Assembly: GCA_022793685.1 (NCBI GenBank)
Contig: JAAWDI010000011.1
Location: 62,001-126,000 of the forward strand
Reading direction: 5' to 3'
Source of the DNA: Oscillospiraceae bacterium
GTDB taxonomy: Bacteria; Bacillota; Clostridia; Oscillospirales; Oscillospiraceae
Length of the DNA stretch: 64,000 nucleotides
Program-made: the position numbers and the translations under genes
In this document: positions 4,667 to 56,042 of the stretch, piece after piece
How the letters are laid out: each line of letters starts with the position of its first letter
Position numbering within the stretch: position 1 is the first letter of the stretch
Notes under the pieces: model-generated
Database searches by the model: none
Told to the model about the DNA's origin: nothing
What the model saw: only the letters and a program-made list of their open reading frames with translations

Positions 4667-6404
4667 TCTCGCTCACTCCTTCCTGCTGAGATGCGTAAAT
4701 CTCCTGATAGATGGCGTTATTAGCCATCAGCTCGTCGTGGGTACCCACGCCCTTAATCTGTCCGTCGTCCAGCACGATAATCTTGTCGGCATACTGCACA
4801 GAGCTGATGCGCTGGGCGATGATGATAACGGAGGTATCCGCCAGATTCTGATGGAACGATTCCCGAATGGCGGCCTCTGTGGCCGAGTCCACTGCGGAGG
4901 TGGAATCGTCCAGAATGAGCACCGACGGCTTGCGCAGCATAGCCCGCGCGATGCACAGGCGCTGCTTTTGTCCGCCGGACACGTTGACGCCGCCCTGCTC
5001 CATGTAGGTGTCAAACCCTTCGGGGAAGGACATGACAAAGTCATAGGCCTGGGCGTCCTTGGCAGCCTGAATGACCTCCTCCTCGGTGGCGTTCGGGTTG
5101 CCCCACTTCAGGTTTTCCCGAATGGTACCCGAAAAGAGGACGTTGCTTTGCAGCACCATACCGATGCGGCTGCGCAGCTCCTCGATGGGGTAGTCCCGCA
5201 CATCCATGCCGTCCAGCAGTACCTGTCCTCCGGAAACGTCATAGAACCTGGGAATCAGGTTCACCAGAGACGACTTTCCGGTGCCGGTGCCGCCTACAAT
5301 GGCCACAAATTCACCCGGCTCCACGGTCAGGTTGATGTCCTCCAGCACGTCGTCGCCGGTGTCGTCGGCGTTGTACTTGAAGTGTACGCCCTTGAACTCC
5401 ACCTTGCCTTTGGATTCGGGGAGCGCAACTGTTTGAGCCGCTTCGCCGTCGCGGATGTCAGGCTCATGGGTGAGCACCTCGTCAATACGGCGGGCGCAGG
5501 CGGTGGCGCGGGAAAATTGCAGCATCATCATACCAATCATCATGACGCTCATGAGAATCTGAAAGATATAGTTGTTAAAGGAACTCAGGTCGCCCACCAG
5601 CATATTGCCGCCGATGACCATGCCGCCGCCGAAATAGTAGGCCGCCACAGTGGCGCCGCACATGCCCAGCATCAGCAGAGGCATCATCAGCACCATACGG
5701 CCGCCCACCTGAAAGCCGGTGTCCATCAGCTCATCGTTCACCTTTTGGAACTTGGTCTTTTCATAGCCGGAACGAACAAACGCCTTGACCACGCGGATAG
5801 CCACCAGGTTCTCCTGCACGGTGTTGTTCACGTTGTCAATCTTGGCCTGCAAAGCGCCAAACAGCTTGTTGCACACCCGCATAATGGCGAAGATACCCAG
5901 CGCCACCAGCGGAACCACCACCAAAAAGATGGCGCACAGCTTTACATTGATGGTTAGGCACATGATGACCGCCACAATAATCATCACAGGGGTGCGCACC
6001 ATCAGGCGCAAGCCCATATTCACAAACTGCTGGAGCTGGTTGGTGTCGTTGGTCATACGGGTGACCAGCGACGCGGAGGAAAACCGGTCAATGTCCCCGA
6101 AAGAGAACTCCTGCACCCGATTGAACTGCCCCCGGCGCAGGTTCGCGCCGAAGCCCATGGCCGCCCGTGTACTGAACCGTGCGGAAAGCACGCCCAGCGT
6201 CATGGAGGCCAACGCCACCAGCAGCATAATAAAGCCCATGCGGACGGTGTAGTTCAGGTCGCCGCTGGGAATGGCCACGTCTACGATGGCCGCCATCATT
6301 CTGGGCATCAGCAGCTCGATGATGGTCTCCACGATGACCAAAATCGGTGTTATAATAAAATATTTCTTGTACTCACCAACATAGTGAGCCAATCGTCTCA
6401 ACAT
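4659..6404 (-). CDS. ABC exporter half-transporter, degenerate-site subunit
   Basis: 581 residues: membrane domain (about 15-300) plus NBD. Walker A GGTGTGKS (371-378) and signature VSGGQ (475-479) are intact, but the catalytic Glu after Walker B is Asp (LILDD, D500) and the H-loop histidine is Gln (IAQRIS). Known heterodimeric exporters such as TM287/288 and BmrCD have one consensus and one degenerate ATP site. Here the degenerate site would combine this Walker B/H-loop with the partner's LSQGQ, and the active site would pair the partner's Glu with this VSGGQ. The gene starts 7 bp after the marR stop and overlaps the next gene, giving the operon marR-ABC-ABC. Confidence 0.94.
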   Translation of the reverse strand: MLRRLAHYVGEYKKYFIITPILVIVETIIELLMPRMMAAIVDVAIPSGDLNYTVRMGFIMLLVALASMTLGVLSARFSTRAAMGFGANLRRGQFNRVQEFSFGDIDRFSSASLVTRMTNDTNQLQQFVNMGLRLMVRTPVMIIVAVIMCLTINVKLCAIFLVVVPLVALGIFAIMRVCNKLFGALQAKIDNVNNTVQENLVAIRVVKAFVRSGYEKTKFQKVNDELMDTGFQVGGRMVLMMPLLMLGMCGATVAAYYFGGGMVIGGNMLVGDLSSFNNYIFQILMSVMMIGMMMLQFSRATACARRIDEVLTHEPDIRDGEAAQTVALPESKGKVEFKGVHFKYNADDTGDDVLEDINLTVEPGEFVAIVGGTGTGKSSLVNLIPRFYDVSGGQVLLDGMDVRDYPIEELRSRIGMVLQSNVLFSGTIRENLKWGNPNATEEEVIQAAKDAQAYDFVMSFPEGFDTYMEQGGVNVSGGQKQRLCIARAMLRKPSVLILDDSTSAVDSATEAAIRESFHQNLADTSVIIIAQRISSVQYADKIIVLDDGQIKGVGTHDELMANNAIYQEIYASQQEGVSENG

Positions 6405-6410
6405 TCAGCG

Positions 6411-6902
6411 TCACATCCTTTCTTCCATAAAGGGTGGTTTGCCCACGTCCTTGTCGCCGCCGATGCGGCACAGGTTTTCCAGCATACGCTTCTCGCAGCT
6501 GAAAAATTGCTGCTTCTCTTCCTCGGTAAAGCCCTGATACATCTGCTCGTCAATGCTGCGGAATACTGCATAGCAGCGTTCCACCACGTCCTTGCCTTTT
6601 TGGGTGATGACCACCCGATTGCAGCGGCCGTCCTGGTCGTCCACCGACTTGGTCACATAGCCCCGCTTTTCCAAGCTCTTCAACGAGGTGGCGACGGTGG
6701 CCGCCGACACATGGAGCTTTTCCGCCAGCTCCTTCTGGGCCGCAATCTCGCCGTCCTTGTTGCTCTGCTCCAGAATAAACAAAATCATCGGCGACCCCAC
6801 ATCAGCCAGCCCTTTTGCAATCAGGTTGGAAAGCAACGCGTTGCGGTGGGCGCGGTGCAGCGTGTGAAAGAGAAATAGATTGCTGTCAGCAGGGGGATTC
6901 AT
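6411..6902 (-). CDS. MarR-family repressor of the ABC exporter operon
   Basis: 163 residues with a winged helix in the middle (LHVSAATVATSLKSLEKRGY as recognition region, then a DDQDGR wing). The ATG chosen has a strong GGGAGGGAG ribosome binding site 4-8 nt upstream; an in-frame earlier start would lie inside the promoter. First gene of the operon encoding the exporter pair, preceded by a consensus promoter with a palindrome at the start site, so autoregulation relieved by an exported compound is the natural model. Confidence 0.93.
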   Translation of the reverse strand: MNPPADSNLFLFHTLHRAHRNALLSNLIAKGLADVGSPMILFILEQSNKDGEIAAQKELAEKLHVSAATVATSLKSLEKRGYVTKSVDDQDGRCNRVVITQKGKDVVERCYAVFRSIDEQMYQGFTEEEKQQFFSCEKRMLENLCRIGGDKDVGKPPFMEERM

Positions 6903-6934
6903 ATTTCTCCCTCCCTTCCTCTTGTCCACTTTAT

Positions 6935-6992
6935 TTAGCCTGCTAACTATCAGCATGTTACGCATTATAGCGTACCAAATATTTAATGTCAA
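6935..6992 (-). promoter_or_regulatory. marR-ABC promoter with palindromic operator
   Basis: Minus-strand TTGACA (6987-6992) and TATAAT (6964-6969), both perfect consensus with a 17-bp spacer. About 18 bp after the -10 sits TTAGC-nn-GCTAA (6935-6946), covering the early transcribed region; such TTAGC half-sites are common MarR operators. Confidence 0.85.
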
Positions 6993-7060
6993 TGGTGAAA
7001 TTGTAAACATTTTATGGCCGCGCCAGCCGGAATATTTTCCGCTTTTCATCAAAAATTGTA

Positions 7061-7099
7061 GAACAAACGTTTGCTTTTCCGGCGTAAACGTGCTATACT
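7061..7099 (+). promoter_or_regulatory. SOS box and lexA promoter
   Basis: GAACAAACGTTT (7061-7072) fits the Firmicutes LexA box GAACRNRYGTTY. It overlaps the -35 TTGCTT (7071-7076), which stands 17 bp from the -10 TATACT (7094-7099). This predicts classical LexA autorepression. Confidence 0.85.
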
Positions 7100-7168
7100 T
7101 TCATTAAACCGTTGAAACTGTATTGCGGCGACCGCTTTGCCGCCTCTCTGCCAAAGGAGGGCTATCAG

Positions 7169-7777
7169 ATGAAGCAGCTTACACCAAAGCAGCAGCAAAT
7201 CTATGATTTCATCGTCTCCTTTTCCGCCCGCACCGGCTATCCCCCCTCTGTTCGCGAAATTGGCGAGGCGGTGGGGCTCAAATCCCCCTCCACCGTCCAC
7301 TTCCACCTGAAGGGGATGGAGGCCGCCGGCCTGATTGTCAAGGCGGAGGGCAAGACCCGCGCCATCACCATTCCCGGCGCCGCACCGGTGGCGGAAAACG
7401 ACAATCCTGCCGACCGAATTCCCGTGGTGGGCAATGTGGCCGCCGGCTCTCCCATTTTGGCGGAGGAGTGCATTGAGGACTACCTGACCTTTGACACGCA
7501 GGGGTTGACGGGGGAACACTTCGCCCTGAGGGTGCGTGGAGAAAGTATGCTGTATGCGGGCATCCTGCCCGACGACTTGGTGGTGGTGCACCGCCAGCAG
7601 GATTGCCGAAACGGCGACATCGTGGTCGCCCTGTTTGAGGACGAGGCCACGGTGAAAACCCTCCGGCGCAAGGACGGCGTGACATGGCTCATGCCGGAAA
7701 ATCCGGACTATCAGCCCATCGACGGCACTAACGCCCAGCTTTTGGGCAAGGTGGTGGCCGTGGTTCGGCGGTACTGA
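7169..7777 (+). CDS. lexA: LexA repressor
   Basis: 202 residues. An N-terminal winged helix (TPKQQQIYDFI..., recognition helix near KSPSTVHFHL) is followed by the S24-type autoprotease domain: cleavage site Ala92-Gly93 (NVAAGSP), catalytic Ser126 (RGESML) and Lys163 (ATVKTL). The ATG was chosen because AAAGGAGG lies 8 nt upstream and the protein then begins MKQLTPKQQQ as in LexA proteins; an earlier in-frame ATG at 7112 has no ribosome binding site. It represses the SOS regulon until RecA filaments stimulate self-cleavage. Its own SOS box is upstream and an intrinsic terminator follows. Confidence 0.97.
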   Translation: MKQLTPKQQQIYDFIVSFSARTGYPPSVREIGEAVGLKSPSTVHFHLKGMEAAGLIVKAEGKTRAITIPGAAPVAENDNPADRIPVVGNVAAGSPILAEECIEDYLTFDTQGLTGEHFALRVRGESMLYAGILPDDLVVVHRQQDCRNGDIVVALFEDEATVKTLRRKDGVTWLMPENPDYQPIDGTNAQLLGKVVAVVRRY

Positions 7778-20975: not shown

Positions 20976-21701
20976 TCAGTTCTTGTGTGATGGCACTGCC
21001 TTCTGTGCGCGCGGGCCGAACAGCGTTGTACCAAGCCTCACCATTGTGGCGCCGGCACGCACCGCGTCCTCGTAATCTCTGCTCATACCCATGGAAAGAC
21101 AGTTTATAACACTTACATTATCGTTGATTTTAGTTCTTATGTCAACATAAAGCTGCGCCATTTTTACAAAAAACTCTCGGTTACCCCCAGCCGCGACGCA
21201 AATCGGCGGGATAGCCATCAGTCCCCGCAGGCGAAGATGGGGAAATTGAGAGATGGTTTCCGCCGCCGTTTGGGTCTCCGCCGGAGAAAAACCGCCCTTG
21301 GCCTCCTCGCCGCCGACATTGACCTCCAGCAGAATGTCCTGCACAACGCCCAGCTTGTCCGCCTGACGCTCTATGGCCTCCGCCAGATGGAGAGAGTCCA
21401 CCGAATGAATCAGGCTGACCTTGCCCACCACATATTTCACCTTATTGGTCTGAAGCCGCCCGATAAAGTGTAGCTTCGCGCCCTCATAGGCGTTCTCCGC
21501 CAGATGGGCGTTCATCTCCTGCACCCGGTTCTCACCGCAGACGGTTATTCCGGCCCGGATAGCGGCCCGAATGGTCTCATCCGTCTGTGTTTTCGTGGCG
21601 GCCACCAGCGTAACCTCCGCCGGGTCGCGCCCCGCCTCCAGAGCCGCCGCACGAATGTTTTCACGTGCCTGCGCCACCCGTTGCTCCAAGGTCTCCATCA
21701 T
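20976..21701 (-). CDS. YggS/PLPBP-family PLP homeostasis protein
   Basis: 241 residues, an alanine-racemase-type barrel without the second domain. PLP lysine in LVAATKTQ near residue 37; other conserved parts are GENRVQE, HFIGRLQTNK and LSMGMSRDYEDAV. Such proteins bind PLP and buffer its level and amino-acid metabolism; they have no racemase activity. Start: first of two adjacent ATGs, with AGAGGG 6 nt upstream. Sits in the conserved yggS-sepF-divIVA order. Confidence 0.95.
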   Translation of the reverse strand: MMETLEQRVAQARENIRAAALEAGRDPAEVTLVAATKTQTDETIRAAIRAGITVCGENRVQEMNAHLAENAYEGAKLHFIGRLQTNKVKYVVGKVSLIHSVDSLHLAEAIERQADKLGVVQDILLEVNVGGEEAKGGFSPAETQTAAETISQFPHLRLRGLMAIPPICVAAGGNREFFVKMAQLYVDIRTKINDNVSVINCLSMGMSRDYEDAVRAGATMVRLGTTLFGPRAQKAVPSHKN

Positions 21702-47276: not shown

Positions 47277-49373
47277 TCATTTTCTGCGGAAAGGCCAGAA
47301 GCCCCGGCGCTTCGGCGGCTCCTCGCCGCCGTCCGCATCCTCCGTAGCAGGGGCTGCGGGCGCTTTTTTCTCCGGTGCTGTCGGCGCAGCGCCGCCGCCC
47401 TGAAGGTTTTTCAGCAGCTTTTTGGAGTCCTCGTCGCCCGCTTCAATGGCTTTCTCGTACCACTCCCTGGCCTTTTCCTTGTCCGGCGTGGTTCCCACGC
47501 CGTTTTCATAGCATTTGCCCAAGTTCCGCATCCCGTGCCGCCGTCCGTCCCGTGCAGAGAGGGTATAAAGCTCAAAGGCGCGCGCCTCGTCCTTTTGTAC
47601 GCCCTTGCCCGTGCGGTACAGGTCGGCCAGATTGTTGCGGGCGTCGCCGTCCCCTTGGTCGGCGGCCAACTGGTAAAGCCGTGCCGCCTCCGCAAAATCC
47701 TGCTTCACGCCCCGGCCTGCGGCATAGCACAGCGCCAGATTATACTGCGCCCGACAGTGTCCCTGCTCCGCAGATTTGGTGTACCATTCCACCGCCTTCC
47801 GCTCGTCCTTGGGAACGCCTTTTCCTGCCTCATAGCACCAGGCCAAATTACACTGGGCGCGGGGGTAACCCTGCTCGGCCGATTTGCGGTACCACGCGGT
47901 GGCCTCTTCCCAGCTCTGCTCCACGCCCCGGCCCGCCTCATAGCACCATCCCAGGTTGCACATGGCTGCCCTGTCTCCGCCGTCGGCCCCCTTGCGGTAA
48001 AGCTCCGTTGCCTTTTCATAGTTCTTTTCTACGCCATCGCCGTTTTCATAGCATACGCCCAGATTGCACAGGGCGGGCGGATAACCTGCGTCCGCCGCCT
48101 TCTGGTACCAGCGGGCAGCCTCGCCCTTATCCCTGGGAACGCCCATCCCCCGGCTGTAGCAGTTGGCCAGACAGTGGTAGGCGGGAACATACTCCTGCTC
48201 CGCCGCTTGCCGGTACAGCTCGATGGCCTTCTCCGGGTCGCGGGTCACGCCCTCGCCGTGCTCATAGCAAACGCCCAGGTTGTTCAGGCCGCGGGGGTAT
48301 CCCTGGTCGGCGCTGCGGCGGTACCAGTCAGCGGCCTCCGCCCAGCTTTGGGGCGTGCCTTGGCCGGCCTCACAGCACCAGCCCAAATTACACTGGGCGC
48401 GGGCATGGCCCTGTTCCGCCGCTTTGCGGTACCAGCGCACCGCCTCCTCCCAGCTCTGGGGCGTACCCCGTCCTGTCTCACAGCAAAAGCCCAGATTGCA
48501 CTGGGCGGTAGCGTCGCCCATTTCAGCGCCCTTGTGGTAGTAGAATACCGCTTTTTCCAGGTCAGACTCCACACCGTGGCCGTGCTCATAGCAAACGCCG
48601 AGATTGCAGAAGGCGGGGGGATAGCCCGCGTCCACCGCCTTTTGATACCATTCCACTGCGGCCTTTCTGTCCTGCTCTGCACCGATGCCCTGGCCCAAGC
48701 AGTTGGCCAGGCAATGGCAGGCGGGGGGATGGCCGGACTCCGCCGCCAGGCGGTACCAGTGGACGGCCGCCGCCTTATCCTGCTCAATGCCGATGCCGAA
48801 CTCACAGCAGCGGCCCAAGTCGGTCTGGGCAGGGGCGTACCCCAGCCAAGAGGCGGACTGGTACCACTGGGCGGCTATCCCCTCGTTTCGGGGGACGATG
48901 CGGCCCACCTCGTAAAACTCGCCCAGAAGGTGCTGCGCCCGCGGGACGCCGCCCTCTGCGGCGGTACGGATGCACTCCACCGCGCCGGTCTCGTCCTTTT
49001 CCACGCCGATACCGTTGAGGAAGCACACGCCCAGATTGCACAGGGCGGGGTGGTAGCCCAAATCGGCGGCCTTGCGGTAATAATACACCGCCTGCTTCGG
49101 GTCCTCCGGCACCCCCCGGCCCGCCTCATAGCACCAGCCGATGTTGGTGATGGCCCAACCGTCCTCCAGCTCCTCGCCCCGGTGGAACCGCTCCAGCGCC
49201 AGAGCGTCCTCGCCCCGGTCAAGGGCCATGTTGCCCAGCACCGTCCATTCGCTGCCGCCCAGGTCTTCCTCCTGCACCGGCATGAGCATGGCCCCGCACT
49301 TGGGGCAGTCGTCCTGCTCTCCGCTGTCGGTCAAAAAGCCGCAATCCGCATTTTCGCAGCGGTAATATTCCAT
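47277..49373 (-). CDS. Sel1-repeat protein with N-terminal zinc ribbon
   Basis: 698 residues. Residues 1-30 form a zinc-ribbon (CENADC...CPKC). From about residue 70 there are sixteen consecutive Sel1-like repeats of 36 residues (pattern NLGxCYExGxGVxxDxxKAxxWYxKAAxxG), then a linker rich in Ala and Pro and a basic end (RRGFWPFRRK). Sel1 solenoids mediate protein-protein contacts. No signal peptide. The partner is unknown. Preceded by a consensus promoter. Confidence 0.92.
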   Translation of the reverse strand: MEYYRCENADCGFLTDSGEQDDCPKCGAMLMPVQEEDLGGSEWTVLGNMALDRGEDALALERFHRGEELEDGWAITNIGWCYEAGRGVPEDPKQAVYYYRKAADLGYHPALCNLGVCFLNGIGVEKDETGAVECIRTAAEGGVPRAQHLLGEFYEVGRIVPRNEGIAAQWYQSASWLGYAPAQTDLGRCCEFGIGIEQDKAAAVHWYRLAAESGHPPACHCLANCLGQGIGAEQDRKAAVEWYQKAVDAGYPPAFCNLGVCYEHGHGVESDLEKAVFYYHKGAEMGDATAQCNLGFCCETGRGTPQSWEEAVRWYRKAAEQGHARAQCNLGWCCEAGQGTPQSWAEAADWYRRSADQGYPRGLNNLGVCYEHGEGVTRDPEKAIELYRQAAEQEYVPAYHCLANCYSRGMGVPRDKGEAARWYQKAADAGYPPALCNLGVCYENGDGVEKNYEKATELYRKGADGGDRAAMCNLGWCYEAGRGVEQSWEEATAWYRKSAEQGYPRAQCNLAWCYEAGKGVPKDERKAVEWYTKSAEQGHCRAQYNLALCYAAGRGVKQDFAEAARLYQLAADQGDGDARNNLADLYRTGKGVQKDEARAFELYTLSARDGRRHGMRNLGKCYENGVGTTPDKEKAREWYEKAIEAGDEDSKKLLKNLQGGGAAPTAPEKKAPAAPATEDADGGEEPPKRRGFWPFRRK

Positions 49374-49503: not shown

Positions 49504-50337
49504 TCAGGTCTTTTTTCGTTTTTTCTGGAGCTGAAGGTTGCGCTCGATGGGTTTCGGCCCCCGCCAGGTAAACGCCCGTTCCGCATACTTTTCTCGAAAG
49601 GCCTTGCCCGACAGGCCGGACACGTCCTCCTCCTCCAGCCGCCGCAGGAGGTCTTGCCGGAATTCCGGCAGGGCTGTTTCCACCGCCTCCCGATTGTAGG
49701 GGCACACCGCCTGACAGCGGTCACACCCCCAAATCAGGTCATGCTCCGCCACCGCGGCGGATTCCCATCCGTTGAGGGGGTCTTTCTTTTGCGTCAGGTA
49801 AGAGAGGCATACCGTAAAATCTCCTCGGCGTAAAGCCCCGGTCGGGCAGGCCTTCACGCACGCGCCGCAGCCAACGCAGCTTGGCGCAGGGTGGCTGTCT
49901 GTTTTCAGAGGCAAATCGGTGAGAATTGCGCCCAGAAAGACCCAAGAGCCATAGGGCGGCACGATGACCATGTTGTTTCGCCCCGCCAGGCCGATGCCCG
50001 CCAGCCGGGCCGCCGGCCGTTCCGGTACAGGGGAGTTGTCCGCCAGCGCCATAAAGCGGTATTCCGGACGCTCTTCCCGAAGCGCGTCGCACACCGCCTC
50101 CAGCCGCCGGGTGACGGCAAGATGGTAGTCCCGCCCCCAGGCATAGTGGGAGAGGTTGCCGCTGCCCTCCTCCGTATAATAGGGAAACGCGGCTATAAAA
50201 ACCCCTCCGGGCGCAGCGCCTAACAGCTCTGTCGCCCTGCCCTGCGCTGCGCCCGTCATGCACGGTTTCAGGTCGTCGTAATTCACCTGTCCCCACGCGG
50301 CGGCTCCTGCCGCTGTGAACAGCTTATCTATTTCCAT
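49504..50337 (-). CDS. QueG-like epoxyqueuosine reductase, short form
   Basis: 277 residues. N-terminal cobalamin-binding-type domain with the catalytic-Asp region ADNSPVPERPAARLAG and GRNNMVIVP, then two 4Fe-4S motifs (CVGCGACVKACPTGAL and CDRCQAVCP). Full-length QueG proteins are about 380 residues because of a HEAT-like C-terminus that is absent here. QueG reduces epoxyqueuosine to queuosine in tRNA with cobalamin; a different reductase role is possible for the short form. It overlaps the end of the MurE-ArgB gene by 10 nt, so it belongs to that operon. Confidence 0.83.
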   Translation of the reverse strand: MEIDKLFTAAGAAAWGQVNYDDLKPCMTGAAQGRATELLGAAPGGVFIAAFPYYTEEGSGNLSHYAWGRDYHLAVTRRLEAVCDALREERPEYRFMALADNSPVPERPAARLAGIGLAGRNNMVIVPPYGSWVFLGAILTDLPLKTDSHPAPSCVGCGACVKACPTGALRRGDFTVCLSYLTQKKDPLNGWESAAVAEHDLIWGCDRCQAVCPYNREAVETALPEFRQDLLRRLEEEDVSGLSGKAFREKYAERAFTWRGPKPIERNLQLQKKRKKT

Positions 50338-52748
50338 GCGTTTTCAGTTCCCTCGGTTTTACCGCCTACAATGGCAGTTCCGATGCTCTTGGGGGAGACG
50401 GCCTCCAACAGCAGGGCGTGCTCCACCCTGCCGTCCAGCACCACCACGCGATGAACACCCGCCTCCACCGCAGACAGGGCAGAGGTCACCTTGGGCGCCA
50501 TACCGCCGGCAATCAGGCCGCTTTGCAAAAGCTCGGCAGCCCGTTTGGCGTCCATCTCATGGATGAGGGTGCTGCGGTTGTGGCTGTCCACCAAAATGCC
50601 GTCCACATCGGTGAGGTAGAGGAGCTTTTCCGCCTTCAGCGCACAGGCCACCGCCAGCGCCGCGTCGTCGGCGTTCACATTATAGGCCATGCCGTCCTCT
50701 CCCTGCGCCACCGGAGACACCACCGGCACAAAGCCGCCGGAAAGCAGGCATTGCAGCAGGGCGGGGTCTGTGCGCTTCAACTCGCCCACCTGTCCCAGCG
50801 CGGGGTCCTTCGCCGCCGCCGTAAACAGTCCGCCGCTTCGGCCGGACACGCCCACCGCAGGCGCGCCCAGCGCCCGCAGCGCGCCGGTCAGGGCCTGGTT
50901 CACCCCGCCGGAGAGGGCGTATTCCACCGCTTTCATATCACCCGCATTGGTCACACGGTAGCCGTTTTGGAAAACGCTCTTTCGGCCCAGCCGGTCTAAC
51001 AGAGCGGTGATGGCCTTTCCGCCGCCGTGGACGACCACCACCCGCACCCCCGCCATATGGAGGGCGGCAATGTCCTGCAAAATGGACTCCTCCGCCGCGC
51101 CGGGAGTGAGGGCGCTGCCGCCATACTTCACCACCACGGTTTTGCCGGACAGGGCGTTCAGCCGAGGGAGGGTATCCAACAGGCCGCGAACCTTATCCAT
51201 GCCGTCCAGGCCGTGGAGCTTGTCGTACTCCAACAGGGCGGCCTTGGTGTATTCCACATCGGAGGGGCAGTCGATATAGGCGGTGCCCCGCTTCTGGCGG
51301 GTTTCTGCCCCTTTGCCGGTGATGAGGAGGATGGTGGGCTGCTCACTGCTCAATACAGCGCTGCGGATGGCCTCGCCCCGGTCGGGCTGGATGGAATACT
51401 CGCACCCCGCCCGCTCCACGTGGGAGGCCACCTCCTTGCAGATGTCCAGCACGTCCTCTTCGCCAGGGTCTTCTTCGGTGACGATGACCAAATCGGAGTG
51501 CGCCCCCGATATTTCGCCCAAATCCTTGCGGCGGTCAAGCGCCTTTTTGCCCGGACAGCCGAACACGGTGACGATGCGTCGGCCGGGGTATTCCTCCTCT
51601 ACCGAAGCATACAGCTTCTGGAAGGAAAGGCGGTTGTGGGCGTAATCCACGATAGCCACCACATGGTCGTTGGCGTTGGCGTAAACCTCCATGCGGCCGG
51701 GCACACGGGCCTTTTGCAGACCCAGATACACCGCATGCTCCGGAATGCCCAGCGCCTCGCACACCGCAATGGCGGCCAAGGCGTTCTGCACATTAAACAG
51801 TCCCGGCATAGTCAGCCGGAAGGTACGGGAAAAGCGGGGGGTCTTGACCTTGAAAAGGATGTCGCCCCCCTCCTTGCGTACGCCGCTGGCGTACACCGTC
51901 GCGCCGCTGTCATGCTGAGAGAAGGTGATAACCCGTCCGGCGTGCTCGGCGGCGGACAGCACCCGCTTGCTTTCGTCGCTGTCCAGATTGACGCAGGCCA
52001 CCTTGCACTGCTCAAAAATCCTCAGCTTGGAGGAGAAGTAGTCCTCAAAATCCGGATGTTCGATGGGGGAGATGTGGTCATAGCCAATATTCAAAAAACA
52101 GGCCACGGCGAACTCCACGCCCAGCACCCGGTCGTACTTTAACGCCTGACTGCTGACCTCCATGGTCAGCAGGGGAATGCCGCTTTCCAGCGCATGGGCG
52201 AAATGGCGCTCCAGCTCCAGCGGCTCCGGCGTGGTAAGGTGGCTTTCAAAACGCTCCACACCGTCATAGGTGTCGATGGATGAGATGACGGCGCTCTCCT
52301 TGCCGCTCTGGGCCAGCACCTCGTCAAAAATATACTTGAGGTAATACGCGGTGGACGACTTGCCTTTGGTGCCCGTGATGCCCACCACGTCCAGCGTGCC
52401 GCTGGGGTGGCCATAGAAAGCGTCCGCCAGCAGAGCCATAGCCCGGCGCACGTCGTTCACCAGCAGCGCAGGAATGGCCGCTCCCTCCGGGAAGGGCTGC
52501 TCCGCCACATAAAGGATGGCGCCCTTCTCCACCGCCTGCGCCAGATAAGCGCCCTTGAAATGGGCCCCCTTGCAGAGAAACAGGGTGTCCTCCACCACCT
52601 CCTGCGAGTCGCAGGATACCAGCGCCACCGGCTTGGAAAGGAGCGCTGCGGGCAGAGGGGCCGCCCCGTTTTGCAGCAGACCCTCCCGCTGCAAAAGCTG
52701 CACATAATCGCCCACCGGGCGGAGGGTGCGCTTGTTCATGTCATCCAC
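50328..52748 (-). CDS. Fusion of MurE-type Mur ligase and ArgB-type acetylglutamate kinase
   Basis: 806 residues in one uninterrupted frame. Residues about 1-505 are a MurE-like ligase: P-loop GTKGKS (126-131), TTPEP, MEVSSQAL, carbamoylated-Lys position 241 (DYFSSK), VPGRMEV, IVDYAHN and GKGAETRQK. The pattern (EHPDFEDYF, RRKDLG) resembles the streptococcal lysine-adding MurE; the DNPR motif of DAP-adding enzymes is replaced by EEDPG (425-429). Residues about 520-800 are a full amino-acid kinase: KYGGSAL, VVHGGGKA, NGYRVT, SGRSGG, LTDVDGIL, IAGGMAPKV, as in N-acetylglutamate kinase. Two neighbouring ATGs could start it. It lies 16 bp after the racemase gene. I infer synthesis of a peptide with a diamino acid; function unproven. 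Confidence 0.9.
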   Translation of the reverse strand: MDDMNKRTLRPVGDYVQLLQREGLLQNGAAPLPAALLSKPVALVSCDSQEVVEDTLFLCKGAHFKGAYLAQAVEKGAILYVAEQPFPEGAAIPALLVNDVRRAMALLADAFYGHPSGTLDVVGITGTKGKSSTAYYLKYIFDEVLAQSGKESAVISSIDTYDGVERFESHLTTPEPLELERHFAHALESGIPLLTMEVSSQALKYDRVLGVEFAVACFLNIGYDHISPIEHPDFEDYFSSKLRIFEQCKVACVNLDSDESKRVLSAAEHAGRVITFSQHDSGATVYASGVRKEGGDILFKVKTPRFSRTFRLTMPGLFNVQNALAAIAVCEALGIPEHAVYLGLQKARVPGRMEVYANANDHVVAIVDYAHNRLSFQKLYASVEEEYPGRRIVTVFGCPGKKALDRRKDLGEISGAHSDLVIVTEEDPGEEDVLDICKEVASHVERAGCEYSIQPDRGEAIRSAVLSSEQPTILLITGKGAETRQKRGTAYIDCPSDVEYTKAALLEYDKLHGLDGMDKVRGLLDTLPRLNALSGKTVVVKYGGSALTPGAAEESILQDIAALHMAGVRVVVVHGGGKAITALLDRLGRKSVFQNGYRVTNAGDMKAVEYALSGGVNQALTGALRALGAPAVGVSGRSGGLFTAAAKDPALGQVGELKRTDPALLQCLLSGGFVPVVSPVAQGEDGMAYNVNADDAALAVACALKAEKLLYLTDVDGILVDSHNRSTLIHEMDAKRAAELLQSGLIAGGMAPKVTSALSAVEAGVHRVVVLDGRVEHALLLEAVSPKSIGTAIVGGKTEGTENAWK

Positions 52749-52764: not shown

Positions 52765-53490
52765 TTAAACGTTGCGCAGCTTCTTGCCGCAGCTTAAAAT
52801 GGCCCGCTCCACCAGCACCTCCATGGCGTCCAGATAGAAATCGGGCAGGTCGTGATACTGGCGGTACACCGACAGCTCTGTGCACGCCAGTATGGCGCAG
52901 TCGCATCCGGCGGCGCGCACCCAGCGGTCAATCTGGGCGAATTTTTCCCGACTTCCCTGTTCGCCCTTCTTAATTTCATTGTAAATGATATGCATCACCA
53001 GACGTTGTTCTGCCTCGCCGGGGACGGCGCAGGCCATGCCCAGCTTTTCGCACTCCTGCTGATACAGCCCCGCCTGCACCGTGCCGTCGGTGGCCAATAC
53101 GCAGGGCTTTTTCAGCCCGCGTGCGTGGACGGTCCGCACGGTTTCCCGCACCATATGGAGAATGGGAATGGTCAGCTTTTCCTGAAGCCTGTCCACAAAG
53201 TAGTGGGAGGTGTTGCACGGAATGGCAATCACCCTGCAGCCGCAGGTTTCCAGCATCTGGGCGTCGTGGAGCATCCGGTTGAAGACGCCGTCCCCCTTGC
53301 CGGAGAGAATGGCCTCCGTCCGGTCGGGCATTTCGGTGTCGCTGAGGATGAGGGTGGGCAAATGGTCTTGGTCCCGCTCTGCCTCCGTCCGGTCCAGAAT
53401 GCGCTGGTAAAACACCTGTGTGGCTTGGGGCCCCATGCCGCCCAAGATGCCAAGCTGGGGCCGGAAGTCGGGCAGCTTTGTCTGCTCCAT
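52765..53490 (-). CDS. Aspartate/glutamate racemase
   Basis: 241 residues. PLP-independent racemase with both catalytic cysteines: Cys92 in IPCNTSHYF and Cys203 in LACTELSV; N-terminal GILGGMGPQATQVFYQ is the family signature and is closer to aspartate racemases than to MurI. It likely supplies D-Asp or D-Glu to the adjoining ATP-grasp ligase. ATG with AAAGGAGGG upstream, 17 bp after the ATP-grasp gene. Confidence 0.9.
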   Translation of the reverse strand: MEQTKLPDFRPQLGILGGMGPQATQVFYQRILDRTEAERDQDHLPTLILSDTEMPDRTEAILSGKGDGVFNRMLHDAQMLETCGCRVIAIPCNTSHYFVDRLQEKLTIPILHMVRETVRTVHARGLKKPCVLATDGTVQAGLYQQECEKLGMACAVPGEAEQRLVMHIIYNEIKKGEQGSREKFAQIDRWVRAAGCDCAILACTELSVYRQYHDLPDFYLDAMEVLVERAILSCGKKLRNV

Positions 53491-53507
53491 GCCGCACCCT
53501 CCTTTTG

Positions 53508-54719
53508 TTATCTCTTTTTCTCGGCGTACTGCCTGAACAGCCCGTAATTGCGCCAGTGGTTCTTCCAAATGCGCAGGCGGTGGCTGAAACTCTTATCCTG
53601 CGGGCAGAACAGGGGGTTGTTCACCGCCCCGGCGTGAAGCAGTTCCTTCATTTCCCCATGGTATTTGAGGTCGATGTAATCGAACGCCACCTTTTTGGGC
53701 ACCACCATGAACAGGCTCTTTTCCTTTGTGATAGTGAAGGGAAGCTCTTTCCCCTCTATCCAGTCCTCTACCAGCAGGCGGGCGATGTTATGACCCGCAC
53801 CGGTCACATAGTAATTGCTACGTCCCTGACGGCAGTTGACCTCAAAGAGCTTATACTTGCCGTCCCGCTCGTCATACTTCATGTCGATGTTGGAAAATCC
53901 CACATAGCCCACCGCCTCCAAAAAGGAGCGCAGGCGCTGGCAGACGGTCTCTTCATAGGTGGTCTGGATGACGGCATAGTTGCCCACGCCGTGAGGGTTA
54001 TGCTCCTCCAGCAGAACATGGCCCAGACACATGAGCTTCACCTTGCCGTCCTTGCCGGAATAGCTGGTCAGCACCCGCATATGGGTGTCGTCGCCCGGAA
54101 TGAATTCCTGCAAAATCATGTCGTCTGGGTAACCGGCGGCATAGATTTTGTGGAGCACCTCCAGCAGCTCCTCCCGGCTCTGGAGCACAAACCCCTTCCG
54201 GTTGCCCTCAAAGGGGTGCGCCCAATAGGCCACATCGTTGGCCGCCTTGCAGATGTAGGGCGGCTCAAAGGGCAGCTCGAAATCGTCCCCCATATCCGGC
54301 TTATAAATAAAGGTGGCAGGGTGTGGCAAACCGTACTGGTCGCACACCTCATAGAAGGACTCTTTGTTGCCCAAGGTGTTCATCAGCTCGCCGCTGATAT
54401 AGGGGGCGACCACATTGGGGGGAAGCTCCTCCCTATGCTCCGCCAAAATGCGGACATAGCTGTCGCCGCAGCCCATGGCAAGCACCGTTTTGTCCCTGTG
54501 GGCGGCGGCGTACTCCACCACCACGCCGCACAGCACTGCAGGGTTTTCGATGTCCTGCTTCACCTTATAGTCCACAATATCGCTGTCCGCACACACCGAG
54601 GCTCCGAATTTGCCATAGGCCACCGGACGAATCCCATAGCCCTCATAAAATGCGCGGGCTACGCTGTATACATTGATGTCGCCGCCGAATAACAGCGGCA
54701 GAAAGGCGGTCTCACCCAT
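53508..54719 (-). CDS. ATP-grasp ligase, D-aspartate ligase-like
   Basis: 403 residues. N-terminal LLFGGDINVYSVARAFYE, central ATP-grasp with FIPGDDTHMRVLTSYS and CLGHVLLEEH, and the metal-binding end FEVNCRQGRSNYYV. These match the COG3919-type ATP-grasp family that includes the enterococcal D-aspartate ligase, which adds D-Asp to the lysine side chain of peptidoglycan precursors. The adjacent racemase supports a D-acidic substrate. Overlaps the preceding small gene by 8 nt. Confidence 0.87.
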   Translation of the reverse strand: MGETAFLPLLFGGDINVYSVARAFYEGYGIRPVAYGKFGASVCADSDIVDYKVKQDIENPAVLCGVVVEYAAAHRDKTVLAMGCGDSYVRILAEHREELPPNVVAPYISGELMNTLGNKESFYEVCDQYGLPHPATFIYKPDMGDDFELPFEPPYICKAANDVAYWAHPFEGNRKGFVLQSREELLEVLHKIYAAGYPDDMILQEFIPGDDTHMRVLTSYSGKDGKVKLMCLGHVLLEEHNPHGVGNYAVIQTTYEETVCQRLRSFLEAVGYVGFSNIDMKYDERDGKYKLFEVNCRQGRSNYYVTGAGHNIARLLVEDWIEGKELPFTITKEKSLFMVVPKKVAFDYIDLKYHGEMKELLHAGAVNNPLFCPQDKSFSHRLRIWKNHWRNYGLFRQYAEKKR

Positions 54720-54918
54720 GGTTCGCCGTCGCTCCTTCCAATTTTACCAGATACCAGCGCTTGTCTCCGCCATCAAAGGGCAGCTTCTCCACCGCCGCGT
54801 TCGGGTACTCCAAGCGCAGGGCGGCCAGCTCTCGTTCGGAAAGCCGCAGCTCCCGTTCCGCCGCCGCGCCGCCCTCAAAAACGTCCCACGGCAGGACGGA
54901 CGCATCCCTTTCACACAT
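54712..54918 (-). CDS. Small protein of the Mur-ligase/racemase operon
   Basis: 68 residues starting MCERDASVLPWDVF; AAAGGAGCGG lies upstream. No membrane segment, mixed charge, C-terminal DGGDKRWYLVKLEG. I do not recognise it. Tight packing (26 bp after the alr-like gene, 8-nt overlap with the ATP-grasp gene) argues that it is real and co-translated, perhaps as a subunit or chaperone of the ligase. Confidence 0.6.
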   Translation of the reverse strand: MCERDASVLPWDVFEGGAAAERELRLSERELAALRLEYPNAAVEKLPFDGGDKRWYLVKLEGATANHG

Positions 54919-54944
54919 ATGCGCTCCGCTCCTTTTGTTTTTCT

Positions 54945-56003
54945 TTAGCGGTATACCCGTTTCAGTCCCCGCGCAAACATCGGCTCCAGCGGGAAGCGGG
55001 CCACATCGCCCACAGCACACTTCAGGTCGGTCACGTCCAGCAGGGTCTCGCGGGCGCCGGTGCAGATGACCTTGGCCTTGCCGCCGTTTACCAGCACCGT
55101 ATTCCTCCGGTCACCCAGCAGGCTGGACAGGAAGCCCTCCTCCTTCTCCGGTGACTCCACGCCAAAGCCGTTCTCGTATCCCACCGGAAGCAGCGCCACC
55201 CGAGTGGGCTTTTTCAGGGTCAAAGGCTTGCGCATTCCAATGGTGTGGCCCTTGGGCAGCCAGTTGATTTCGGACAGGGTGGCCTCGCCATAACCCACCT
55301 CGATGAGCTTGTCCCCCTTGCTGCGGCGGCAGCGGCCCATCAGCACCGAGCCTGCCCGCACCGCGTCCCGCCGGACAAAGTCATAGGTCAGCAGGGCGTA
55401 AGAGCCTGCAATGTGGATAGCGCCCGTCTCAAAGCCCTCTTGATGCGCCTGCTCCAGCACCGCTTCAAAGGCCTTGATGCGCTCCAGCGCCTGAGGGTTC
55501 GCCCCCTCCTGAAAATGCACCTGCGTATAGACGCCGCTCACCGCCACGTTGGGCATGGTGCGGAAGGCCATCATGATTTTTTCCGGTTCCTCCACCGGGA
55601 AACCACCGAAGCCGAGGCCTGTGTCAATCTGGATGTGGGCCTCTACAATGGTGGCGCGCTCCGCCGCAAGGGCGTTCAGGGCGGCCCCCGTCTCGGCAGA
55701 GCCGACAGAGCACACCGCGTTGCAGTCCACCAGCTGCTCCAGCTCTGTGCGGTCGGTGGTGGAGCGAAGCATCAAAATCTCCTCGTCCACAAAGCCCGCC
55801 CGCCGCAGGGCAGCCACGTCCTCCGGTTCGCTGACGGCAAAGCGGGCAATGCCCGCGTCCCTGCAAATGGTGGCCAGCTCCACAAGGCCGGCGCCCTGCC
55901 CGTCGCCGGAGAGCACGGCATAGATGACCGCCTGTCCGGCCCGCTCCCGCACCACGGCGATATTGTTCAAAACGGCTTGTTTCTCTATTACCAATGCTTT
56001 CAT
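54945..56003 (-). CDS. Alanine-racemase homologue lacking the PLP lysine
   Basis: 352 residues with the full two-domain Alr layout. The motif AVVKANAYGHG of true racemases reads AVLSGDGQGAG here, so the PLP lysine is Ser32. The Lys of HLKVDTGMGR is Gln (HIQIDTGLGF) and its Arg is lost too. The catalytic Tyr of the GYxxG motif (Tyr276, VGYENG) and Arg216 (AVRAGSV) remain. It is therefore unlikely to be a PLP racemase; a structural, binding or regulatory role is more probable. First gene of the operon, AAAAGGAGG upstream, own promoter. Confidence 0.85.
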   Translation of the reverse strand: MKALVIEKQAVLNNIAVVRERAGQAVIYAVLSGDGQGAGLVELATICRDAGIARFAVSEPEDVAALRRAGFVDEEILMLRSTTDRTELEQLVDCNAVCSVGSAETGAALNALAAERATIVEAHIQIDTGLGFGGFPVEEPEKIMMAFRTMPNVAVSGVYTQVHFQEGANPQALERIKAFEAVLEQAHQEGFETGAIHIAGSYALLTYDFVRRDAVRAGSVLMGRCRRSKGDKLIEVGYGEATLSEINWLPKGHTIGMRKPLTLKKPTRVALLPVGYENGFGVESPEKEEGFLSSLLGDRRNTVLVNGGKAKVICTGARETLLDVTDLKCAVGDVARFPLEPMFARGLKRVYR

Positions 56004-56042
56004 TTTTCTGCCTCCTTTTTAGGAGATATCAATACAGAATAT

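Follow-up and report, generated by a model that had tools for sequence, protein, structure and literature searches.

The window analysed here, a stretch of 64,000 nucleotides from an Oscillospiraceae bacterium (assembly GCA_022793685.1, contig JAAWDI010000011.1), encodes at 54945-56003 a protein that resembles alanine racemase (Alr) and carries a serine where the lysine that binds pyridoxal phosphate (PLP) is expected. An earlier sequence-only reading took it for a repurposed pseudo-racemase and not for a simple mutation. We asked whether such a protein can still be a racemase, whether it is a broken gene and, if it is neither, what it might do.

The protein is predicted to keep the fold of alanine racemase

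The open reading frame has 352 codons on the minus strand and starts with an ATG at 56003 (Table 1). The protein matched the Pfam domains Ala_racemase_N (E 4.6e-36) and Ala_racemase_C (E 3.9e-07). With TIGR00492, the NCBIfam alanine-racemase model, it scored 113.5 bits, under the cut-off of 168, and the VanT-G serine racemase was its top match in NCBIfam and among PDB sequences. The AlphaFold model has a mean pLDDT of 94.0 and a pTM of 0.90. Compared over the whole chain with Alr crystal structures, it gave a Z of 36.4 and an rmsd of 2.4 for 335 aligned residues, and a Foldseek search with the same model gave a TM of ~0.85, again with VanT-G as the top match. As modelled, the protein is a complete two-domain Alr fold, with an N-terminal barrel and a C-terminal beta domain, in agreement with the earlier claim that the fold was kept. 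The accompanying claim that the overall length remains is correct for most of the chain and fails at its end: in the alignment the protein lacks the C-terminal tail that would carry Tyr354, and so does the whole subfamily, Lys-bearing members included.

Table 1. Features of the pseudo-racemase locus in the window.
Feature	Positions	Strand	Basis
Alr-fold pseudo-racemase of 352 aa with Ser32 for the PLP Lys	54945..56003	-	Pfam, alignment, AlphaFold
Shine-Dalgarno-like AAAAAGGAGGC ahead of the pseudo-racemase ATG	56008..56018	-	
Ser32 codon at the PLP-lysine position (VLSGDGQG vs VKADAYGHG in the genome's Alr)	55908..55910	-	position computed from the ATG at 56003
Small ORF, 68 aa, MCERDASVLPW..., preceded by a ribosome site of its own and overlapping the ATP-grasp gene start	54712..54919	-	
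ATP-grasp ligase, AslA/Aslfm (D-aspartate ligase) type	53508..54719	-	sequence matches
Asp/Glu-type amino-acid racemase, RacD-like	52765..53568	-	TIGR00035
Second MurE-like ligase, with a fused ArgB (acetylglutamate kinase) domain	50328..52748	-	Pfam, NCBIfam, sequence comparison

Most catalytic residues are replaced

The roles of the numbered Alr residues are established for the family. Lys39 forms the internal aldimine (Schiff base) with PLP, Tyr43 binds the PLP phosphate, Tyr265 is the second base, and Arg219, Ser204 and Gly221 hold the pyridine ring and the phosphate of PLP. The residues of the window protein were read from an alignment with the genome's own canonical Alr (L001, VKADAYGHG) and 160 relatives, so that statements on the pocket refer to alignment with the numbered Alr residues and not to inspected coordinates. 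In this alignment the PLP lysine, Lys39, is replaced by Ser32, Tyr43 by Gln36 and the carbamate-Lys129 site by Gln125; further replacements are Arg136 by Phe132, His166 by Gln161, Asn203 by Gly200 and Met312 by Ala317. Besides the Schiff-base lysine and the phosphate-binding tyrosine, the residues that assist acid/base catalysis have been lost. Ser204 (Ser201), Arg219 (Arg216), Gly221 (Gly218) and the GY-motif Tyr265 (Tyr276) are retained. The alignment thus bears out what had been read from the letters alone: a serine for the PLP lysine, a glutamine for the carbamoylated lysine, the loss of its Arg partner and the survival of the GY-motif Tyr.

A canonical Alr with Lys39, which the earlier reading proposed to look for, is encoded elsewhere in the genome (G000:C22) and scored 363 bits with TIGR00492. 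The genome holds a third PF01168 protein, at ~21012-21668 of the window (minus strand; 67.6 bits, open frame of 274 aa), which is probably a PLP-homeostasis protein of the YggS/YlmE type.

A replacement lysine, named beforehand as an observation that would speak against a pseudo-racemase, was sought in the clade of the window protein: lysines are conserved at 12, 19, 142, 251, 264, 265 and 328, and none of these is an Alr active-site position. The presumed catalytic death of the protein is well supported, and it very probably cannot act as a PLP racemase: no PLP aldimine would be formed and no racemisation would follow.

The lysine is lost throughout two clades

Of 250 genomes searched from the same bacterial family, about half contained full-length relatives, and further ones were taken from species genomes and mid-range matches. 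The source genome is 73% complete, and many of the relatives come from metagenome assemblies. The relatives were divided into three sets: the T clade, to which the window protein belongs (64 tabulated), the S clade, its sister (39), and a basal Lys-bearing grade (55). About 65 orthologues make up the clade of the window protein, and all but one are without the PLP lysine, mostly with Thr or Ser in its place. The residue at this position is T in 50, S in 10, A in three and M in one of the 64 tabulated T-clade proteins, and S in 35, T in three and N in one of the S-clade proteins. The losses are thus common to a large clade and not private to the window protein, and Thr, not Ser, is the commonest replacement. 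Since the loss is shared by more than 100 relatives, a single mutation or an assembly error was ruled out.

The T clade retains much of the pocket floor. The Tyr265 equivalent is Tyr in 61 of 64 proteins, Arg216 is Arg in all 64 (100%), Tyr276 and Asn278 each reach 95%, and the equivalents of Arg219, Ser204 and Gly221 lie between 98 and 100%. The Tyr43 site varies (Gly, Tyr, Gln, His). Most S-clade proteins have Tyr at the Tyr265 site, with Trp also frequent, and Arg219 has given way to Cys or Leu in part of that clade. Every member of the Lys-bearing grade (55/55) keeps Lys, Tyr43, Arg136, His166 and Arg219, and all 14 relatives from other clostridial families have Lys, Arg136, His166, Arg219 and Tyr265. 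In 19 of the 55 Lys-bearing proteins (e.g. L148, L109, L145, L149), mostly FemX-linked, Tyr265 is replaced by Trp with the other catalytic residues intact. Exchange of Tyr265 for Ala makes Alr a D-threonine aldolase, according to work cited in PMC4401734, and by analogy the Lys-bearing proteins with Trp may be PLP enzymes with another reaction that have left racemisation behind.

One operon member, L101, has Ala for Lys in the motif VLAGDAYG; its gene (5929-7305) also encodes a Glu/Ala-rich low-complexity C-terminal tail of ~90 residues. A relative in the same operon with the normal lysine had likewise been named as an observation against a pseudo-racemase. One such relative exists, L099/L205 in genome G036, but it does not look like a racemase either, because Arg136 is replaced by Tyr, His166 by Arg, Arg219 by Gln and Tyr265 by Thr.

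The tree places the Lys-less clades as derived from within the Lys-bearing grade. Two independent losses of the lysine were considered and rejected: a quick tree needed two changes because L099, with its lysine, fell inside the T clade, whereas a tree grouping all Lys-less sequences fits better and was not rejected (p-AU 0.72), so that one loss is sufficient. An order running from the full catalytic set through Tyr265 to Trp and then to the loss of Lys is only one possible inference, since the T clade and most S-clade proteins still have Tyr at the Tyr265 site.

The altered pocket is conserved in the T clade

NG86 dN/dS was 0.06-0.26 in ten close pairs of the T clade vs 0.06-0.11 in the Lys-bearing set. 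The T-clade proteins are under purifying selection, somewhat relaxed. Their pocket columns had a mean entropy of 0.69 vs 1.10 elsewhere (p 0.007); no significant difference in conservation between the pocket and the rest was seen for the S clade. At nine positions the T clade is fixed for a different residue than the Lys-bearing set, and six of the nine lie in or beside the pocket (p 4e-4). Because the T-clade pocket columns are conserved and the fixed differences centre on them, the sequences suggest that the pocket has been altered rather than given up.

On the evidence of these comparisons, the 54945-56003 protein is a pseudoenzyme of the Alr family: the catalytic residue is lost, the protein is under purifying selection and a catalytic paralogue stands in the same genome. 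The earlier reading of a repurposed pseudo-racemase gains support from the canonical Alr elsewhere and from the absence of the lysine across two clades whose members are full-length and under selection. Its retention in this altered form by dozens of related species suggests that the protein probably functions, though not as a racemase (it may be a helper or a sensor), and that the gene is not a broken one.

Gene neighbourhoods of the Lys-bearing and Lys-less forms

The names of the neighbours mutL, Dtd, MiaA, Hfq and FemX come from reading translations, with a Pfam search in addition for FemAB. Neighbouring genes in GC-rich loci were called by composition scoring, and some antisense shadow frames remain (cluster c1). 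A FemAB/FemX-type gene lies directly upstream of the Lys-bearing form in 40 of 55 cases, with a median gap of 6 bases, and a FemX-like gene lies directly upstream in 14 of 14 Lys-bearing relatives from other clostridial families. The FemX-type peptidoglycan transferase and the racemase-like gene form a conserved pair in several clostridial families (L180-L193, L067-L090). With genomes treated as independent, FemAB was found in 25 of the 28 typed family genomes that have only the Lys-bearing form and in 2 of the 74 that have only Lys-less forms (2 of 76 in a separate count with weak matches taken as absent). The window protein is best read as a dead paralogue, conserved in its clade, of a fold-type III racemase that is FemX-linked and spread through the Clostridia, here named Alr2. 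A literature search of limited scope found neither a Lys-less alanine racemase nor a FemX-racemase pair, which is weak evidence.

Directly downstream, mutL is found in 36 of 39 S-clade loci, and in the T clade a D-aminoacyl-tRNA deacylase-like gene (30/64) or an AslA-like ligase (25/64). The deacylase-like gene follows the pseudo-racemase in L005-L033 and L091-L095; in L091 it stands ahead of miaA and hfq, where the S clade has mutL. Among the 250 genomes, with shared ancestry ignored, an AslA-like ligase occurs in 31 of 39 T-clade genomes, unlinked to the pseudo-racemase in 24 of these 31, and in 2 of 66 other typed Alr2 genomes (2 of 39 S-clade, none of 27 Lys-bearing). Genome G036, with the Lys-bearing L099, also has the ligase, as do 26 of 128 family genomes without a close Alr2 member; the pseudo-racemase is therefore not required for it. 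The operon link is not universal, because the deacylase-like gene neighbours 30 T-clade loci and mutL neighbours the S clade, and because the Lys-less form is limited to one bacterial family, hitch-hiking is possible.

In the window the pseudo-racemase heads an operon of cell-wall genes in this gut clostridium and is followed by the small ORF, the ATP-grasp ligase, the Asp/Glu-type racemase and the MurE-like-ArgB fusion. A counterpart of the small ORF was seen in L031 only. Lactobacillar carboxylate-amine ligases share 36-40% identity with the ATP-grasp protein, among them a Latilactobacillus curvatus ligase (40% over 78% of the length of the ATP-grasp protein) that adjoins an amino-acid racemase; a sequence search of the PDB gave no match to the ATP-grasp protein. 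The MurE-ArgB protein has the motif EEDPG vs SDNPR in the genome's other MurE. Its MurE part is nearest to enzymes of Collinsella (43%), Enterococcus (annotated as L-lysine ligase, 39%) and Latilactobacillus (37%), and is thus nearer to Lys-type MurE; the same type of ligase occurs unfused in other genomes. The AslA-type ligase and the aspartate racemase are adjacent in the window and in L194-L199, and the AslA/RacD/MurE2 core is also present in other genomes away from the pseudo-racemase. AslA with RacD is a known route for adding D-Asp side chains to peptidoglycan (PMC4155827). Elsewhere in the window, 47277-49373 (minus strand) encodes a protein of 698 aa that, judged by eye, resembles a long Sel1-like repeat array with an N-terminal CxxC-type zinc-ribbon-like motif.

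Proposed function and alternatives

The reading that we put forward, with a little less than even confidence, is that the protein is a neofunctionalised pseudo-racemase: a partner protein without catalysis of its own that binds a ligand or regulates, in the metabolism of peptidoglycan side chains or of D-amino acids. Its two parts deserve different weight. A role in that metabolism is reasonably likely, because the Lys-bearing relatives sit with FemX and the window protein's own clade tracks the D-Asp ligase module; that the protein acts there as a ligand-binding or heteromer-forming regulator is plausible at best, perhaps one chance in three. The relatives that resemble the ancestor stand behind FemX with a full catalytic set, and the T clade tracks the AslA/RacD/MurE2 D-aspartate-ligase operon instead. 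For the mechanism of such a partner we infer the following. The barrel floor of Arg216, Ser201 and Tyr276, together with the new lining of Gln125, Gln161 and Gly200, would bind a small ligand without covalent PLP, candidates being amino acids, D-aspartyl compounds and B6 vitamers. Through this ligand, or through a heteromer, the protein would serve as a regulatory or scaffolding, prozyme-like partner of the enzymes by which peptidoglycan precursors receive their D-Asp side chains. The boldest version, unlikely as it stands, is that a racemase partnered with FemX changed in stages, in some relatives with Tyr265 to Trp ahead of the loss of the lysine that binds PLP, into a sensor or prozyme that works without PLP and controls D-Asp side-chain addition to peptidoglycan, a bacterial counterpart of antizyme inhibitor and prozymes.

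The same altered pocket could instead serve a new PLP-independent chemistry on the Alr barrel, such as the hydrolysis or epimerisation of amino-acid derivatives, by means of Ser32/Thr32, Gln125, Gln161, Arg216, Tyr276 and Asn278. Fixed differences centred on an active site that is still conserved, and the near-invariance of Asn278, Tyr276 and Arg216 in the T clade, agree with it, but the old-lysine position (Thr/Ser/Ala/Met) and the Tyr43 site are variable, which is unusual for a catalytic residue, and no new conserved acid/base pair is evident; we give it about one chance in five. Rather less probable is a heterodimer with the canonical Alr, in which the pseudo-racemase would lend Tyr276 to the active site at the dimer interface and so alter rate or specificity. 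Such a partner is at hand, with a canonical Alr over the cut-off in 240 of the 250 family genomes, the Tyr265 equivalent is retained in the T clade despite the loss of the lysine, and prozymes offer precedents (PMC3663545). Yet identity to canonical Alr structures is only ~20-25%, the Tyr354 tail is absent and Trp is often found at the Tyr265 site in the S clade.

The high retention of the Arg219, Ser204 and Gly221 equivalents in the T clade would also suit a non-covalent carrier or sensor of PLP or PMP in vitamin B6 homeostasis, in a YggS/YlmE-like role. We consider this improbable: the phosphate-binding Tyr43 is lost and its site variable, some S-clade proteins have Cys or Leu for Arg219, and the genome already has its third PF01168 protein, of a size consistent with YggS. 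Gene decay, or an artefact of assembly or sequencing, could account for a dN/dS about twice that of the Lys-bearing relatives and draws on the incompleteness of the assembly, but a full-length open frame in dozens of genomes, purifying selection, a conserved pocket, a good ribosome site and a confident fold make it very hard to uphold. Least credible of all is a racemase that still uses PLP through another lysine, for although the Arg219 and Tyr265 equivalents are kept, none of the lysines conserved in the clade falls on an Alr active-site position, and Tyr43, Arg136 and His166 are lost too.

Significance and comparison with known systems

Annotation pipelines are likely to label the Lys-less proteins alanine racemases, and many Oscillospiraceae genomes would therefore be credited with a second racemase that they lack. 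The family contains natural intermediates (proteins with all the catalytic residues, proteins with Trp for Tyr265 that retain Lys, and two clades without Lys), so that conversion from a PLP to a non-PLP protein is open to residue-by-residue study. If the link to D-aspartate side chains is true, it would point to an unknown layer of cell-wall control in abundant gut bacteria.

The pseudo-racemase is like Alr and VanT-G (TIGR00492; VanT-G catalytic domain, PDB 4ecl) in its complete two-domain fold and in keeping Arg219, Ser204 and Tyr265, and differs from them in being without the PLP lysine, Tyr43, Arg136, His166 and the C-terminal tail, with 113.5 bits vs the 168 of the model. The FemX-linked Lys-bearing Alr-like proteins of Clostridia are full-length homologues with 29-43% identity and the same shortened C-terminus; they differ in having FemX upstream and a catalytic set of Lys, Tyr43, Arg136, His166 and Arg219.

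AZIN1 and ornithine decarboxylase belong to the fold-type III class of PLP enzymes. AZIN1, an inactive ornithine decarboxylase paralogue, offers the likeness of a non-catalytic paralogue of a PLP enzyme kept as a regulator (PMC3663545), but it is eukaryotic, acts on antizyme and is not a relative of the racemases. The prozymes of trypanosomatids (AdoMetDC, DHS), which with antizyme inhibitor exemplify dead paralogues with regulatory roles, are likewise retained alongside the active enzyme (PMC3663545); those prozymes activate their own paralogue. The AslA/Aslfm and RacD module of lactic acid bacteria and enterococci resembles the window operon in its ligase, to which the downstream ATP-grasp protein is 36-40% identical, and in the adjacent racemase (PMC4155827); the window operon adds to it a Lys-type-like MurE-ArgB fusion and places the pseudo-racemase in front.
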